DNA of 64,000 bases from the NCBI GenBank assembly GCA_018402345.1, contig JAGYIV010000016.1, positions 62,001 through 126,000 on the forward strand, given 5' to 3'. The position numbers and the translations under genes are program-made. Below the pieces are notes generated by a model. The model was not told the origin of the DNA and did not search any database. It saw only the letters and a program-made list of their open reading frames with translations. This document shows, one piece after another, positions 55,938 to 64,000 of this stretch. The stretch is from Terrimicrobiaceae bacterium. Lineage in GTDB: Bacteria > Verrucomicrobiota > Verrucomicrobiia > Chthoniobacterales > Terrimicrobiaceae. Each line of letters opens with the position of its first letter. Position 1 is the stretch's first letter.

Positions 55938-57503
55938 ATGAAACCGGTTACGATCTACGACACCACCCTGCGCGACGGCACCCAAGGCACAGGCATTTCC
56001 TTTTCGGTCCTCGACAAGATTCGCGTGGCCCAAAAGCTCGACGAGTTCGGGATCGACTACATCGAGGGCGGTTGGCCGGGCTCGAACCCGCGCGACGCCG
56101 CGTTTTTCGCCGAGGCGTCGAAGATCGAGTGGAAACACGCCCGCCTGGCCGCCTTCGGAAGCACGCGCCGGGGCGGGGTGGATGTCGCAGGCGACCCGCA
56201 GGTGAAGATGCTGTTGGACGCCGCCACGCCGGTCGTGACGATCGTTGGCAAGACATGGCTCCTCCATGTCACCGAGGTGCTGAATGTCACGGCGGAGGAA
56301 AATCTCTCGATGATCGCCGACACGATCGCGCATTTGAAATCCCACGGCCGAGAGGTGTTCTACGACGCCGAACATTTTTTCGATAGTTTCAAGGACGATC
56401 CAGACTACTCGCTGCAGACCCTCCGCGCGGCACGCGATGCCGGGGCTGATGTGCTGGTGCTTTGCGATACGAATGGCGGCACGCTCCCGGAGGACATCCA
56501 GCGCGCCACCGCCGAGGTCATCGTCCAACTCGGCTGCAAGGTCGGGATCCATACCCACAATGACTGCGGCCTCGGGGTGGCCAACGCCCTCGCCGGCGTG
56601 CGCGCCGGAGCCTGCCAAGTCCAAGGCACGATCAACGGCTACGGCGAGCGCGTGGGAAATTGCAATCTCACCACCACGATTCCCGCCCTGCAGGTGAAGA
56701 TGGGCCTGCCCTGTGTCCCCGAACTGACGATGCTCCGCGAGGTGTCGCGGTTTGTGGATGAACTCGCGAACGTGCCGCAGGACATTCGGGCGCCGTTTGT
56801 CGGCCAGGCGGCATTCACCCACAAGGGCGGCCTCCACGTGCACGCTGTGCAAAAGCTCGCCCGCACCTACGAGCACATGGATCCCAAGCTCGTGGGGAAT
56901 TCGCAGACGATCCTCGTCTCCGACATGTCCGGCCAGAGCAATATCCTCGCCAAGGCCGCCGAGTTGGGCCACGCGTTCCAAAAAGGAGCGCCGGAAGTCG
57001 CCGCCATCCTCAAGAAGGTCAAGGAATCCGAGGTGCAGGGCTACGAATTCGAGGCCGCCGATGCCTCGCTGGACCTCTTGATCCGCCGCACGCTCGGCGG
57101 GCACAAACCGCTGTTCGATTTGAGCGAGTTCCACTGCTCGTTCCGCCAATCCCGCCAGCATGGCTTCACCACCTGCGAAGCCACTGTGAAACTCGAGGTC
57201 GGCGGGGTTCCGGAATACACAGTGGACGAGGGGGACGGCCCGGTGAACGCCCTCGACGCCGCCCTCCGCAAGGCGCTGCGCCCGTTCTATCCGTGGATCG
57301 ATGCCGTGCGTCTTGAGGATTACAAAGTCAGGATCATCGACGGCTCGCGCGGCACCGCCGCCCGCACCCGTGTCCTCATCGTCTCAAGCGACGGCTCGAC
57401 CAAGTGGGGCACCGTCGGCGTCTCCGACAACATCATCGAAGCCAGTTGGCTCGCCCTCGTCGACAGCTACGAATTCCACGCCCTCAGGACCACAGCGGGC
57501 TGA
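55938..57503 (+). CDS. cimA: Citramalate synthase
   Basis: 521 residues. HMG-L-like TIM barrel with IYDTTLRDGTQGTGISFSVL, metal-binding GIHTHNDCGLGVANALAGVR and the FTHKGGLHVHAV region, then a LeuA-type dimer domain (LIRRTLGGHKPLFD, LEDYKVRIIDGSRGTAA). The length and DGTQG sequence favour CimA over 2-isopropylmalate synthase. It condenses acetyl-CoA and pyruvate to citramalate for isoleucine synthesis; leuB nearby can act in the same route. Directly followed by the repeat zone. Confidence 0.93.
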   Translation: MKPVTIYDTTLRDGTQGTGISFSVLDKIRVAQKLDEFGIDYIEGGWPGSNPRDAAFFAEASKIEWKHARLAAFGSTRRGGVDVAGDPQVKMLLDAATPVVTIVGKTWLLHVTEVLNVTAEENLSMIADTIAHLKSHGREVFYDAEHFFDSFKDDPDYSLQTLRAARDAGADVLVLCDTNGGTLPEDIQRATAEVIVQLGCKVGIHTHNDCGLGVANALAGVRAGACQVQGTINGYGERVGNCNLTTTIPALQVKMGLPCVPELTMLREVSRFVDELANVPQDIRAPFVGQAAFTHKGGLHVHAVQKLARTYEHMDPKLVGNSQTILVSDMSGQSNILAKAAELGHAFQKGAPEVAAILKKVKESEVQGYEFEAADASLDLLIRRTLGGHKPLFDLSEFHCSFRQSRQHGFTTCEATVKLEVGGVPEYTVDEGDGPVNALDAALRKALRPFYPWIDAVRLEDYKVRIIDGSRGTAARTRVLIVSSDGSTKWGTVGVSDNIIEASWLALVDSYEFHALRTTAG

Positions 57504-57830
57504 CAGGATTTTTAGGAGGGGGAAAAGACAGGAGGACAGGAGGGCTGGGGATTTTTTAGACAGGATGACAGGATTGGCAGGATTAACAGGAGGGGGGCGA
57601 CAGATTTTTTTGAATTTTATGGGGAAGGGCAGAATGATGGGAAAAGCTGAGGTGCTGCTGTTTTTTTGAATTTTGTAAATTCTGTTAATTTTGTCTAAAA
57701 AAACCCCACAGTTGTCGTGTTCAAGCGGCAGGCGGAGAGCCCGGATTTTTGCCCCATCCCATCCCCCCTCCTGCTAATCCTGCTAATCCTGTCTAAAAAA
57801 AACCCGCGGGGGGCGTGTTGCTTTGCCAAG
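57504..57830. repeat. Composite repeat block I after cimA
   Basis: No gene. Starting right after the cimA stop there are AGGATTTTTAGGAGGGGG and TTTTTTAGACAGGATGACAG followed by GGATTAACAGGAGGGGGG in sense orientation. From 57612 a module begins that recurs at 58395 and 63620 (ATGGGGAAGGGCAGAATGAT, a T8-flanked AATTTTGTAAATTCTG, CCCCATCCCATCCCCCCTCC, then TAATCCTGCTAATCCTGTCT). The latter part is the reverse orientation and ends at the stop of the next minus-strand gene. Confidence 0.85.
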
Positions 57831-58070
57831 CTATTGGAGGAACTTGATGAGGGCGGCGGTGGTGGCCATTTGGCCGATCCAGAAGAGGAACATCCACTTG
57901 ATGATTTCCGCTTTGAGTTCCGCGCCATCCTGCTTGGTCATGAGCCGTTTTGTGAGGTCCTGCTCCTGTTCGCGAAAGGCGATTTCCAGACTCTCTGCAA
58001 TGGCTCTGGCCTTGGGCGGCTCGATGCTGGCAGCTTCAAGGATCGAAAGGATTTTCACCGTGCTCATCAT
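57831..58070 (-). CDS. Coiled-coil membrane microprotein, short copy
   Basis: 79 residues. N-terminal VKILSILEAASIEPPKARAI, a heptad-patterned helix (REQEQDLTKRLMTKQDGAEL) and a C-terminal membrane segment IIKWMFLFWIGQMATTAALI. It resembles the bacterial CCDC90/DUF1640-like family of coiled coils with a C-terminal anchor. It is a paralogue of the gene at 58616-58918, about 85% identical outside a deletion of 21 residues in the coil. It may start at the first or second ATG (58070 or 58067). Function unknown. Confidence 0.65.
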   Translation of the reverse strand: MMSTVKILSILEAASIEPPKARAIAESLEIAFREQEQDLTKRLMTKQDGAELKAEIIKWMFLFWIGQMATTAALIKFLQ

Positions 58071-58615
58071 GGCTGATGATGCTGTAGAGTGAGGTGGATG
58101 TCAATGAAGCGGTTGGACAGGATGACAGGAGGGGGGAGGGGGATTTTTTGACAGAATTAACAGAATTAACAGAATTTTAGCGGGGAAGGACAGGATGACA
58201 GAATCGGAGCGCAGCGGAGAAAGACTGCCAAAGGCAGCCCGAAGGGCGAGCAAAGCGAGTCAACTTTCAGGATTAACAGGAGGGGGAAGGACAGGTGGGT
58301 GACACTTAAAACTTAAAACTTAAAACTTAAAACTTAAAACTCCTCTTTGGCCGCCCTTCGGGCGAGCAAAGCGAGTCAATTAACAAAATTAACAGAATTT
58401 TATGGGGGAAGGGCAGAATGATGGGAAAAGCTGGGGTGCTGCTGTTTTTTTTGAATTTTGTAAATTCTGTTAATTTTGTCTAAAAAAACCCCACAGTTGT
58501 CGGGGTTCAAGCGGCAGGCGGGGAACCCGGATTTTTGCCCCATCCCATCCCCCCTCCTGCTAATCCTGCTAATCCTGTCTAAAAAAACCCGCGGGGGGCG
58601 TGTTGCTTTGCCAAG
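58071..58615. repeat. Composite repeat block II between the two microprotein genes
   Basis: No gene. Contains the AGGATGACAGGAGGGGGG tract, GACAGAATTAACAGAATTAA (58150-58180), two hairpin boxes (58229-58263 and 58345-58379), a run of five CTTAAAA heptamers ending near 58340, and from 58395 a second copy of the module seen at 57612. The hairpin box at 58345 has its loop inverted (GCCCTTCGGGC instead of GCCCGAAGGGC). Confidence 0.85.
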
Positions 58616-58918
58616 CTATTGGAGGAACTTGATGAGGGCGGCGGTGGTGGCCATTTGGCCGATCCAGAAGAGGAACATCCACTTGATGATTTCCGCTTTG
58701 TGATTGGCCATCTCGGTGCGGAGTTCCGCGCGAAGATCGGCCATGGAGGTTTTGATCTCGGCACGAAGCTTTTCGCCATCCTCGTTGGTCATGAGCGTTT
58801 TTGTGAGGTCGTCCTCCTGCTCCCGGAATGCCAGTTCAAAGCTCTCCGCAATCGCGCGGGCCTTGGGAGGCTCGATGCTGGCGGCTTCGAGGATCGAGAG
58901 GATTTTGACCGTGCTCAT
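58616..58918 (-). CDS. Coiled-coil membrane microprotein, long copy
   Basis: 100 residues. Same N-terminus (VKILSILEAASIEPPKARAI) and C-terminal anchor (IIKWMFLFWIGQMATTAALI) as the copy at 57831-58070, but the coil has 21 more residues (EIKTSMADLRAELRTEMANH) between. The two genes lie in a tandem duplication of about 520-590 bp that also includes flanking repeat modules. The start ATG at 58918 is single, unlike the double ATG in the short copy. Confidence 0.68.
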   Translation of the reverse strand: MSTVKILSILEAASIEPPKARAIAESFELAFREQEDDLTKTLMTNEDGEKLRAEIKTSMADLRAELRTEMANHKAEIIKWMFLFWIGQMATTAALIKFLQ

Positions 58919-59216
58919 GATGGGTGACGATGCTGGAGAGTGAGGTGGATGTCAATGAAGCGGTTGGACAGGATGACAGGAGTTTCAGGATTAACAGGAA
59001 GAAAAGACAGGAGGGGGAAGGACAGGTGGGCGACACTTAAAACTTAAAACTGAAAACTTAAAACTCCTCTTTGGCCGCCCGAAGGGCGAGCAAAGCGAGT
59101 CAATTAACAAAATTAACAGAATTTTAGGGGGGAAGGACAGGAGTGGGGATGGGCGACACTGAAAACTCCTCTTGTCCTTCCCCCTCCTGTTAATCCTGCT
59201 AATCCTGTCATCCTGT
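58919..59216. repeat. Composite repeat block III before the PATR gene end
   Basis: No gene. After the duplicated 3' arm (to about 58980) there are AGGATTAACAGGAAGAAAAG, CTTAAAA/CTGAAAA heptamers (59035-59065), one hairpin box (CTTTG 59069 to CAAAG 59095), AATTAACAAAATTAACAG and finally CCTGTTAATCCTGCTAATCC then TGTCATCCTGTCTAAA abutting the stop codon of the PATR gene. Confidence 0.85.
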
Positions 59217-62200
59217 CTAAACTGTCGGCTCTTTTCCTTCTTTGGCTTGCAGGCGGCGGCGGAGGGCGTTGAGGAGCCAGCCGCCGAGGAGGACCAGGGC
59301 GGTGATGTAGACTTCGGGTTCGGGGACGGGGCCGATTTCGCCGCTCAGGCCCATTTCAAAGGCTGTGCCTGCGAAGCCTTGGCCGAAGTCACCGCTGTAG
59401 AAGCTGATGCGGTTGAGATAGGTGGAGAGGCCGCTTTTGTCGGTGAAAATGATGTGCGGGTTGTAGGCCAGGCTGCCGACTTGGGTGCCGTATTTGTTCA
59501 AGCCAGTCCAGTTCGTGATCGCGAGCGAGGTGCCGTCCAGCCAGCTGCCGAGGGCGGAGAAGGTGAGGTTGCCGGTGAAATTCTTCACGTCGATGATCGA
59601 GTTCGCGCTGAGGGTGAGCGCCCCCACTGATTCGTTGAATGTGCCGTTGAGCGACAACGTGCCGCCGCCGAGGTTCATGGCAGCCGAGTCGTTGATCGAC
59701 CCGGCGGCGCGGACAAGGAGCGATCCTCCATCGACATTGACCGCCGAGGTTCCCCCCAGCGCGCCCATGGAAGTAATCTCCAACGTGCCGTGCATTGACC
59801 GTCGTGGCTCCGCTGAAGGTGTTGCTGCCGGAGAGGACGAGCGTGCCGGTGCCGTTTTTGGTGACTCCGCCGGTGCCGTTGACTGTGTTTGAAATCGTGA
59901 GCGTGTCGCCGTTGTCCACATCGAACGTGGCGTTGTTCACGGTGATCCCGCCGCTGAGGGTGAGGGTTTCGCTGGCCTTGACATTGTAAACGCTCATGGC
60001 GTTCGCGAAGGTGCCCGTGGCGTTGAGGTGGAGGAGCGAGGCGCCGCTGGATTGCGTGAGGGTGCCGGTGCCCGCCGCGCTGGCGTGGTTGAGGGTCAGC
60101 GTGCCGGAGTTCAAGGTCGTGCCGCCGGAGTAGGTGTTGGCGGCATTCAAGATCAGGCTGCCGGTGCCGTCTTTGATGATCATTCCTGTGCCGCCGATGG
60201 CTGCCGTGGCAAAATTCGTGCCTTGGGTGACGGTGTCCGAGCGGTTGAAGGCGAGAGTGCCGTTGACTGGTGATCGCGCTGGAGGTGGAGAGCGCGCCGG
60301 TGGTGCCGCCGTTGCCGAGTTGGAGGGTTCCGGCGTTGATGGTGGTGGTGCCTGCATAAGTATTGGCGGCGGAGAGGACGAGCGTGCCAGTGCCGTTTTT
60401 GGTCAGGCTGCGGGTTCCGCCGAATTGATCCACGATCCAGGCGACTTCCATCGAGGCACCTGACCCTGACGTCTACGGTTGATGTTGGCGTTGAGTTCGA
60501 TGCGCCCGACGCCGGCGGCAGCGTTGGTGAAATTTGCTGTTGTGGCGGCGTTGACCGCTAATGCTGCCTCCCGTCACAAGCCCTTTTCCGTCTCCGAGAT
60601 TTGCTGAGTGGTTGAAAACGAAAGCGGTGTTTCCAAGGGTGGTGGTGCCAGTGGTGTTCAAGCGTGAGCTGGTCACGCCCGCCAAGGTCAGTGTGCCGCC
60701 GGTGAAGCTGGAGGCATTGCTCAGAGTGAGGGTTCCCGAGCCGATGGTCAGAGCGCCGCCGCTCATGGTGGCCGATCCGACGGTTTCGCTCCGGGTTCCG
60801 ACGGCGAGCGTGCCGCCGGTGATCGTCACCGCGCTGGTGTCGCCGATGGCTGTGTTGGAGCCGAGGGTGAGTGTTCCGGCATTGATGGTGGTTGCGCCCG
60901 AGTAGGTATTCGAACCGGAGAGCGTGACTGCGCCGCTGCCGTTCTTGGTGAGTGACCCGATCCCGCTCATATTGCCCGAGTAGGTGCCCGATGTGGACTG
61001 GTCGAAGACCACTGCGGCGTTGTTGGCGATGTCTCCCTGAAGGCTCGAGGTGGTGCCTTGGAGGATGCCGGAGTTGACATTGGTGCCGCCGCTGTAGGTG
61101 TTCGTGCCTCCGAGGACCAGTGTGCCGAGGCCTGCCTTGGTCATGCCGTTTGACCCCGCGAGGACCGAGTTGATGGTGGCTTGGACTCCGGTGTCAACAG
61201 TGATGGCGTTTGCCACATCGCTGGCGGCTCCGAGGGTGAGCGTGCCGCTGGAAAGGGTGTAGCCGGTCGTTTGGAAGGAGATGCCAGCATTCGCGGAAAT
61301 GGTCCCCACGGTCACGGTGCCCGCGGTGCCTTCAAAGGTGGCGGTGCTTGCGGGATTCCATGTTGTGCCGGACACAGAGGCATTGCTGGTGGACCAGTTC
61401 GTGTTTGTTCCGTTCCATGTGCCAGTGCCGCCCAGACTCGCCCCGTTCGCCGTCCAATACATCGCCGCCGCGCTCTCGATGATGGAGAGCAGGCCGCTGG
61501 ATTGGTTCAGTGAAAACGAATAGCTTCCCGAAGAGCCGCTCCAAATGCCCGAACTCAAGCTCAGGCTGCCGGTGAAGCCTCCGCTGCCTGTGAGCGACAC
61601 GGTGGAAAAATCTCCGGAGGGGTGGTGAAATTCCACAGGTCGTAGGAAGCGGAGGGCGTCGCACTGGCTATGTCGAGCGAGAGCCCGTTCCCCAGCGTGA
61701 TCGTGCCGGCATTCAAAAACCCCGCCGTGCTTGCGCCCACGCCGAGCGTCAATCCCGCTGTGCCGATGCTGAAGCTCGTGGCGGTCGTGTCGAATGTGCC
61801 GCCGTCCGAGATGACCAACGCGGAGTCGGAGGCGAGGGAACCGGAGGCCCCGAGCTTGAGCGTGCCTCCGTTGATTGTGGTTGAGCCATTGTAGGTGTTC
61901 GCCCCCCCAAGAACCAACGATCCCGTGGCTCCCGCCGCTGCGTCAACGGTCAATCCGGTGCCGGAACTGCCGGACATGGCTCCGTTGAATGTGTAGGTGC
62001 CGTTTGCGCCGATTGTGATCGTGCGCGTGGCCGCTCCGAGGGAGACGGCGTCTGAAAAGGTAATATTGGCCGTCGCGCTCCCGTTGCCGGAGGGGACTCC
62101 GGTGGTCACTCCGCCGAGGCTAAAATCCCCCCCAACCGTGATGCTGGAGTATTTTCCAGCCGTTGGTGCGAAGTCGGTATCGCTTAAAAGTGAGCCTCCA

Positions 62201-62718
62201 TTGAATGTTAGTGCACCCTGACCAAGGTTGTTGATGCTATTACCGCCGATGACAACCGTTCCATTATTAAGAGTGAATCCTCCCTTGAATGCACCTGTTC
62301 CTCTGATGTAGACTATTCCGTCTCCCTCTTTTATAAAACCTGTTTTGACTGATGTGGTGGACGTGGAAAAGCCTTGATTCGAAAAATCAAGAACAGCTCC
62401 AGATCCCACATCCAATGTGGAAACCCTATTTCCAGTATTGTAAGTGCCGACAGCAGTCATTTGAACCAGCACATTGGGGCTGACGGTTACATCACCAACG
62501 CGTGTGGATGCGAAAGTGATCGCTGAGTTCGCAGTAAAAAAAGCATCACTGGCATTACTGCTCGTCCACACTGTCCCGCCCGTTGGGGAGGCCGGGTTCG
62601 ACCAGTTTGTCCCGGTCCAAGTGGCGCTGGTTCCGTCTGTTCTCCAATAGAAATCAGCCCCAAGCATGCGCTCTGCGCCCAACCCGAGGGCAACCGCAGC
62701 GATTAAAAAATGTTCCAT
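59217..62718 (-). pseudogene. PATR-repeat surface protein with PEP-CTERM anchor, broken by five frame changes
   Basis: From ATG 62718 a signal peptide (MEHFLIAAVALGLGAERMLG, cleaved near AD) leads into beta-helix sequence. At least six autotransporter-associated repeats follow, such as [17 protein letters not shown], and the end carries the sorting signal VPEPE, a membrane helix and RRR. No autotransporter barrel. The frame changes near 61620, 60559, 60472, 60268 and 59791. Together the pieces give about 1165 residues, a secreted, anchored beta-solenoid. Each break is fixable by one base. The family (TIGR02601-type repeats with PEP-CTERM) is common in Verrucomicrobiota. Confidence 0.85.
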
Positions 62719-63179
62719 TTCATATCTCGAATTTTTCTTTTGTTTCAGAACCCGGGCTGTTGAGCGCGGGGTGTGTGTTGGAGTTCGAGAGACTCGAGGG
62801 CGTTCTCTCCCTGCGGAGCGGTCCCGCAGGCGACTTGAACTGTGGTGTTCGCCGTGGGGGGCATCCACGCGCCGGGAGCGAGCGGATGTCGGTGAACGGA
62901 GGTGAGGGTGGGAGAGTTGAGGGGTGGCCTCAAAGGGTTTAGTGCAATAAAACCGTCACATTGGCGGAGGGGGGCATGGGAGGGGAAAGTGTGGCGAATG
63001 GAGCAACCGGGCGGCTGGAAATCGACAGTGCAGTCACAATGCGACCCCTTGAGCCCTGCGGGTTTCCTCAATAAATCAACTCTGCAGCAGGTGATTGGAT
63101 CGAAATCAGTCTCCATGCCGCGACATAGAGCAGATGGAGTGCCAGAACGGGGATTAAGACAAACATGTCACAAACCCAG
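62719..63179. other. Upstream region of the PATR gene, no gene seen
   Basis: About 460 bases with only short unsupported reading frames. The minus-strand leader of the PATR gene is AT-rich near its start (AAAAGAAAAATTCGAGATAT) and may hold the promoter; I cannot place -35/-10 boxes. The stretch 62800-63100 is GC-rich without recognisable motifs. Confidence 0.6.
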
Positions 63180-63849
63180 GGATATTGGACAGGATGACAG
63201 GAGGGGGAGGGGGATTTTTTAGACAGAATTAACAGAATTAACAGAATTTTAGCGGGGAAGGACAGGATGACAGGAGTTTCAGGATTAACAGGAGGGGGTT
63301 GGACAGGGGGGGCGACACTTAAAACTGAAAACTGAAAACTTAAAACTCCTCTTTGGCCGCCCGAAGGGCGAGCAAAGCGAGTCAATTGGCAGGATTAACA
63401 GGAGGGGGAAGGACAGGTGGGTGACACTTAAAACTTAAAACTGAAAACTTAAAACTCCTCTTTGGCAGCCCGAAGGGCGAGCAAAGCGAGTCAACTTTCA
63501 GGATTAACAGGAGGGGGTTGGACAGGGGGGGCGACACTTAAAACTGAAAACTGAAAACTTAAAACTCCTCTTTGGCCGCCCGAAGGGCGAGCAAAGCGAG
63601 TCAATTAACAGAATTAACAGAATTTTATGGGGAAAGGGCAGAATGATGGGAAAAGCTGGGGTGCTGCTGTTTTTTTTGAATTTTGTAAATTCTGTTAATT
63701 CTGTCTAAAAAAAACCCGCGGGGGGCGTGTTCAAGCGGCAGGCGGGGAGCCCGGATTTTGCCCCATCCCATCCCCCCTCCTGTTAATCCTGCTAATCCTG
63801 CTAATCCTGTCTAAAAAAACCCGTGGGGGCGTGTTGCGTGGCTGTTGTC
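63180..63849. repeat. Composite repeat block IV with 110-bp tandem array
   Basis: No gene. 63189-63270 repeats the 58117-58200 tract almost exactly. Then three tandem units of about 110 bp follow, each made of AGGATTAACAGGAGGGGG, GGACAGG(T/G)GGG(T/G/C)GACA, CTTAAAA/CTGAAAA heptamers, CTCCTCTTTGGC and a hairpin box (CTTTG at 63351, 63460 and 63570; spacing 109 and 110). From 63620 a third, incomplete copy of the 57612 module runs into the end of the pfkB gene. Confidence 0.88.
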
Positions 63850-64000
63850 CTACGGCAACTCGAAGTGTGCGATTCTGCGGAAGAGGTCGTAGCGGGAGTC
63901 GATTTGGGATTTGTCGACGGTTTTGAGGCGTTCGAGGCTGAAGGCTTCGACGTTGTAGCTGGCGAGGACGCTGCCGTGGACGACGGCTTTTTTGAGGAGG
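63850..64000 (-). CDS. PfkB family carbohydrate kinase, C-terminal end (truncated by window)
   Basis: Reverse strand, open to the right edge; the last 49 residues before TAG at 63850-63852 are visible: KKAVVHGSVLASYNVEAFSL, ERLKTVDKSQIDSRYDLFRR and IAHFELP. The VLASYNVEAFSLERL helix is the typical end of PfkB/ribokinase-type kinases in which the last helix follows the ATP-binding GxGD loop. Catalytic residues lie outside the window. Confidence 0.7.
   Translation of the reverse strand, partial: LLKKAVVHGSVLASYNVEAFSLERLKTVDKSQIDSRYDLFRRIAHFELP

Follow-up and report, generated by a model that had tools for sequence, protein, structure and literature searches.

The window analysed here, a 64,000-nucleotide stretch of a Terrimicrobiaceae genome (3.14 Mb in 17 contigs, the closest named relatives being MAGs of Verrucomicrobia or Spartobacteria bacterium), contains two homologous segments (57612-58129 and 58395-58980), each with a small coiled-coil open reading frame on the minus strand that ends in a C-terminal hydrophobic anchor. 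The two coils are of unequal length, which raises the questions of what these proteins are, by which unit the coil has changed and whether the pair is as young as the recent tandem duplication originally predicted from the sequence. Copy A (57831-58070) encodes 79 amino acids from its first ATG and copy B (58616-58918) encodes 100. The 5' end of copy A reads ATGATG and the start homologous to that of copy B is at 58067, so the lengths compared below are 78 and 100 amino acids. On one side the pair is flanked by a gene of 521 amino acids, which can be read from its Pfam LeuA_dimer and HCS_D2 domains as a citramalate synthase (cimA), and on the other by an autotransporter-like gene containing a PATR repeat. 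The latter (59217-62868, minus strand) has a PEP-CTERM-like end by eye and is split over several overlapping frames, either as a frameshifted pseudogene or through assembly errors in repeats.

Both copies were members of the known CCDC90-like/DUF1640 family, which occurs in prokaryotes and mitochondria and includes MCUR1 relatives. Copy B was only just above the cut-off for Pfam PF07798 (CCDC90-like; 34.2 bits, cut-off 33.5), copy A with 15.5 bits failed the same cut-off alone, and the two are homologous at the nucleotide level. Thirteen of 18 aligned relatives matched PF07798 at E<=0.01. The proteins are laid out as a head, a putative beta-layer neck, a coiled-coil stalk and a C-terminal membrane anchor. 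The neck motif is at residues 42-47 and follows the consensus [aliphatic]-A-T-K-[polar]-[DE] at five of six positions in copy A (LMTKQD) and at four of six in copy B (LMTNED), with exact LATKED-type motifs in many relatives. A beta-layer of this consensus opens the C-terminal stalk of DUF1640 proteins (PMC4786415, in part). A structure model of the copy B monomer gave helices at residues 3-12 and 17-42, a break at 43-45 that coincides with the L-M-T-N-E-D neck and a single helix at 46-99 running through stalk and anchor, with modest model confidence (mean pLDDT 71.8, pTM 0.33, head 52-60).

The membrane helix was judged from hydrophobicity, the alignments and this model helix. The hydrophobic stretch W80-L99 of copy B (58622-58681, minus strand) was largely invariant in 12 and in 18 aligned relatives, with an invariant anchor of IKWMFLFWIGQ type, although the relatives were found with search patterns that contained the anchor, so that its conservation is biased upward while stalk length was not directly selected. 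The DNA of the copy A anchor (57837-57896, minus strand) was identical to that of copy B (85/85; 66/66). No match below E 0.1 was obtained in a PDB sequence search, and none at E<=0.001 in a fold search, which carries little weight given the low confidence in the head. The search for relatives on phages or plasmids gave no match, and two PHROG families of unknown function matched weakly.

The known family members MCUR1, CCDC90B and yeast Put6/Put7, assigned to DUF1640 in the excerpted text of PMC7519068, share with copies A and B the head, stalk and C-terminal membrane helix, and probably the beta-layer neck. Unlike these, A and B are only 79 and 100 amino acids long, bacterial and without a mitochondrial targeting part, and they form a tandem pair with unequal stalks of which copy A is under the Pfam cut-off. 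Put6 and Put7 are described in the same excerpt (PMC7519068) as matrix-facing membrane proteins in one hetero-oligomer, and such a pairing of paralogues could serve as a model for copies A and B together. The same ATK[polar][DE] beta-layer is found in DUF3782 or Tcar0761-type alpha/beta coiled coils, for which the C-terminal anchor is not among the features described in the part of PMC4786415 covered here. Repetition of the beta-layer every 9 residues, as in the DUF3782 or Tcar0761-type proteins, was present in some relatives (L233, L239) but absent from A and B.

A promoter-like element (TTGACA-17-CATCAT, 58076-58104, minus strand; 10/12 in a promoter scan) ended 5 nt short of copy A's first ATG. 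Its counterpart in copy B (TTGACA-17-CATCGT, 58927-58955, minus strand) was seen in the sequence and was too weak to be listed by the scan. TTGACA was at about -37 there and likewise 5' of the homologues in L017, L018 and L019, with the spacing counted by eye. Given these distances, both copies probably yield leaderless mRNAs. No intrinsic terminators were detected by a scan of 57500-59250 and no Rfam matches in 57000-64000. The region is rich in repeat-derived frames, and the two reading frames might for that reason be thought to have arisen by chance in repetitive DNA. Homologues with an invariant anchor across phyla refute this reading, and the synonymous bias in the head and the promoter-like element upstream of copy A also speak against it, leaving it with a negligible probability. 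The pair is real and of a known kind, and the predicted pair of coiled-coil membrane microproteins with a change in coil length was upheld.

The unit of that change was different from the 63 bases, 21 residues or three heptads put forward in the original prediction. The alignment of A and B has an in-frame gap of 66 nt and, independently, the offset of the ungapped repeat steps from 785 to 851, so that with the start of copy A taken at 58067 the difference is 22 residues rather than 21. Measured from the neck T, the pre-membrane W was correspondingly at a distance of 14 in copy A and 36 in copy B. The segment present in B and absent from A, located by repeat offset and alignment gap, spans 58701-58766 on the minus strand with edges ambiguous by a few bases, and is equal to two hendecads. 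Copy B contains three successive 11-residue units (58670-58768, minus strand; LRAEIKTSMAD, LRAELRTEMAN and HKAEIIKWMFL), the last of which enters the membrane helix. The first two 33-mers of copy B were identical at 22 of 33 bases, and 33 was the best DNA lag tested (0.58). Residue identity in 52 long stalks from relatives reached 0.321 at lag 11 versus 0.096 in shuffled stalks, with 0.271 and 0.225 at lags 22 and 18, while the rate at lag 21, or three heptads, was 0.064 (shuffles about 0.1). Hydrophobic power in the same stalks was 1.33 at a period of 3.667 residues (shuffled 0.18) and 0.16 at 3.5 (shuffled 0.19).

The length rule was quantified across the family with those rows that had a neck motif, which numbered 90 after exact deduplication and formed 66 clusters at 80% stalk identity. 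A hydrophobicity filter had left 156 of 183 ORFs, and some of the 39 rows classed as other were unrelated junk. Stalk lengths ranged from 14 to 120 and changed in steps of whole 11/3 helical turns, 11 residues being the most frequent step. The best period for the 66 clusters was 3.66 residues with R 0.756, a strength reached by none of 2000 jittered sets, compared to R 0.525 at 3.5 and 0.017 at 7. Residue classes 3, 6, 7 and 10 mod 11 held 59 of the 66 clusters and lengths of the form 14+11n were dominant; of the 60 clusters that departed from a length of 14, the departure was a multiple of 11 in 21 and a multiple of 7 in 14. With the last neck motif as landmark in 88 proteins, 48 were in class 3 and 19 in class 10 mod 11, and the best period was 3.65 (R 0.807; 1 of 20000 random unique-length sets as good). 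An independent FERRL landmark (n=31) gave R 0.852 at 11/3 versus 0.135 at 3.5, with none of 20000 random unique-length sets as good. Measuring from the first neck motif instead weakened the signal in unique lengths, which 172 of 20000 random sets then matched, owing to the extra 9-residue beta-layer repeats in some proteins. The control distances at 11/3 gave R 0.166 from start to neck (n=72) and R 0.378 from W to stop (n=156), the latter having a narrow distribution. Heptad quantisation, and with it the expectation that coil length would vary in multiples of seven residues, was rejected on the 22-residue difference between A and B, the R at 7 and the identity at lag 21.

Apart from Adlakha 2019 (Structure 27:464), which is excepted from this statement, no report of stalk-length quantisation in the DUF1640, MCUR1/CCDC90B family was found in the literature searched. 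Discrete length classes that keep phase between two ends are also a property of Rec-GGDEF diguanylate cyclase linkers, whose coiled-coil lengths fall into heptad-step classes (PMC8041772, in part). The step in those linkers is 7 residues whereas that of the CCDC90-like stalks is a whole number of 11/3 turns, and the two are not homologous. The present stalks, for which the repeat unit is now corrected and the length rule quantified, add an 11/3 example to the published heptad-quantised signalling linkers.

The divergence between A and B was a mosaic. Identity was 60/65 in the 5' flank, 124/152 from head to gap, 85/85 in the anchor and 213/217 in the 3' flank (57612-57830 for copy A, a repeat module segment, and 58395-58615 for copy B by repeat comparison and alignment, both minus strand). 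The near-identity originally ascribed to the segments is thus uneven. The heads were 82% identical, with 13 synonymous and 8 non-synonymous differences in the first 50 codons, and the first 26 codons encoded an identical protein yet contained 9 synonymous changes. As non-coding DNA was more alike than adjoining synonymous sites, recombination after an older split is indicated. The pair is an older one that was partly homogenised, and the description as recent fits its anchor and 3' flank only.

A simple recent tandem duplication through recombination between repeat modules, followed by a deletion in copy A, would be consistent with the module units that bound both copies, with a spacer that is repeated too and with the 98-100% identity of anchor and 3' flank. 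We regard it as improbable, because the heads with their synonymous changes are too diverged, a short stalk is the commonest type in close relatives and one relative (G024) likewise has one longer and one shorter type. A neck-to-W distance of 14 was found in G017, G012, G433, G007, G435 and G024 (short copy), one of 21 in G431 and in the longer G024 copy, and 51, counted by hand, in G014, compared to the 36 of copy B. Since the short stalk is commoner among the closest relatives, a lengthening of B is probably likelier than the shortening of A that had been proposed. Common to the short-type copies of G017 and G024, and absent from copy A, were an anchor and a 3' flank (alignment score 91 versus at most 27 in shuffles); copy A has the 3' end of copy B (alignment score 396). 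In a tree of the heads, copy B fell beside the longer types from G014 and G024 and not beside A, with support of 38-52% at the key nodes. This was too low to date the duplication, and the mosaic divergence is the main basis for the age of the split.

Units of the repeat module were located between and around the two copies. The spacer between A and B (58131-58394) was a composite of CAGRATTAA 9-mers, AAAACTT heptamers and GGGCGAGCAAAGCGAGTC, and a second, related spacer was identified upstream of B (58983-59221) by repeat comparison. The downstream spacer belongs to the repeated unit (58311-58416 versus 59035-59140, 94% identity). The whole cluster was bracketed by an inverted repeat with an outer arm of 42 nt at 57555-57596 (plus strand) and a partner at 59180-59221 (98% complementary). 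A third copy of the 3' flank without a gene was found behind a pfkB-type gene (63620-63837, 90% to query 1-212). The module sequence CAGRATTARCAGR was counted 60 times genome-wide against 0 for its reversed control, and formed some 20 clusters that were mostly far from A and B. Among nine close homologues just one (L019) had the module within 500 bp, and for a second (L021) the distance was 1.4 kb. It is a general intergenic repeat and not part of the CCDC90-like gene family, although it may well have helped recombination at the A/B locus. The predicted repeat-mediated duplication is accordingly plausible here, where the copies are embedded in modules, but the flanking of homologues by the module expected elsewhere was not general. 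No papers on the module were found in the literature searched.

The genome contained no further paralogue beyond A and B, the only other match being at E 0.176. Matches were obtained in 6 of 26 genomes of a family-level sample, leaving 20 without one, and in 3 of 387 genomes of a phylum sample, the window's genome being included in both counts. Loci of other phyla led to 17 genomes with 120 matches between them, and stalks were measured for part of these. A cultivable carrier of the gene is Mucilaginibacter arboris (locus L028). Tandem sets with unequal stalks were present in the four clusters measured, namely G417 (32/25/65), G418 (25/14), G415 (35/29/32) and G413 (32/18, about 1.4 kb apart). 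Five genomes (G411-G415) reached through Nitrospirae or Magnetominusculus loci had 10-22 CCDC90-like matches each, a large expansion.

With somewhat better than even confidence, we consider A and B to be old CCDC90-like paralogues that act as tail-anchored, probably trimeric spacers and whose anchor and 3' flank were recently homogenised by recombination. In each protein a small head of helices would be followed by a beta-layer neck, a stalk of hendecads and a single C-terminal membrane helix. No signal peptide was evident by eye and the C-terminal helix has a very short tail, which suggests a tail anchor and a head that faces the cytoplasm. The beta-layer structures (PMC4786415, in part) suggest by analogy that the proteins are trimers. 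The stalk may serve as a spacer that sets the distance and the rotation of the head relative to the membrane. A hendecad has 3.67 residues per turn versus 3.63 for a relaxed helix (same part of PMC4786415), and because its pitch is near that of a natural helix, an insertion of 11 residues would add length with little rotation of the head. Copy B would then stand two hendecads, or about 33 A from the textbook helix rise, further out than copy A, and the two could build long, short or mixed trimers. Homogenisation of the anchor and 3' flank of this old pair would have taken place by recombination within the repeat-rich locus, possibly as gene conversion.

The stalk length may, on the other hand, have no role. 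In a neutral scenario it would drift by 33-nt slippage with any whole-turn change tolerated and A and B redundant, and the hendecad repeats still recognisable in the DNA (22/33 between 33-mers), the wide span of family lengths and the many family-level genomes without a match are in keeping with this. The recurrence of unequal-stalk tandem arrays in unrelated genomes argues against it weakly, since drift gives the same pattern, and we give neutral drift a somewhat less than even likelihood. More speculative, and less likely than not, is the proposal that the bacterial CCDC90-like proteins are stalk-length ladders, in other words families of rulers with a tail anchor, many of them arranged in tandem or present in 10-22 copies per genome. 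Whole 11/3 turns would be gained or lost in evolution while the neck and the anchor on either side stay fixed, such that one cell would show the same head at several heights unrotated. No role for bacterial members of the MCUR1 family was assigned in the literature searched. The quantised stalk length is a direct handle on function in that it predicts changes of 11 residues to be tolerated and changes of 5-6 residues not.

The surroundings of the gene varied between genomes. In the loci of nine relatives, with flanks of at most 3 kb, none of the marker genes neighbouring A and B was beside the homologues except for a weak autotransporter match in L018. These unshared neighbours, the patchy occurrence in the family-level and phylum samples and the bracketing of BrnT and GxxExxY genes by the same module would agree with a gene that travels as a small mobile cassette between module units. 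We think this unlikely, as the module was close to only the one homologue in nine and neither a transposase nor a target-site duplication was identified within these flanks.

The CAGRATTAA-type repeat adjoined several unrelated small accessory genes, including those for a BrnT toxin, a GxxExxY/PDDEXK_3 nuclease (three genomes), Fic_N, YhcG, a 23S_rRNA_IVP four-helix protein, DUF2283 and CCDC90-like proteins. Such accessory genes were located at L128:3419-3859, L128:15235-15639, L267:1935-2957, L267:7647-8732, L267:9085-9438 and L131:1405-1680, and in relatives at L270:1572-1949 and L273:1123-1509. By our own classing and with site sets that were built differently, 7 of 19 Pfam families in the surroundings of 20 module sites were of the small-accessory sort, and near 20 random sites ORF6N and the DUF4143/AAA_14 pair were of that sort among the 25 families listed, with 11 more beyond these. 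A GxxExxY gene with the repeat at its side was flanked by one and the same pair of pilin-like genes in the window's genome (L128:14428-16193), G017 and G025 (L270:1029-2737 and L273:706-2694), as if inserted into a pilin-like operon. L128 also featured two near-identical antitoxin-like ORFs by eye (L128:9198-9437 and L128:9509-9769, minus strand) of 79 and 86 amino acids, which are about 310 bp apart and have the same N-terminal 77 residues by eye.
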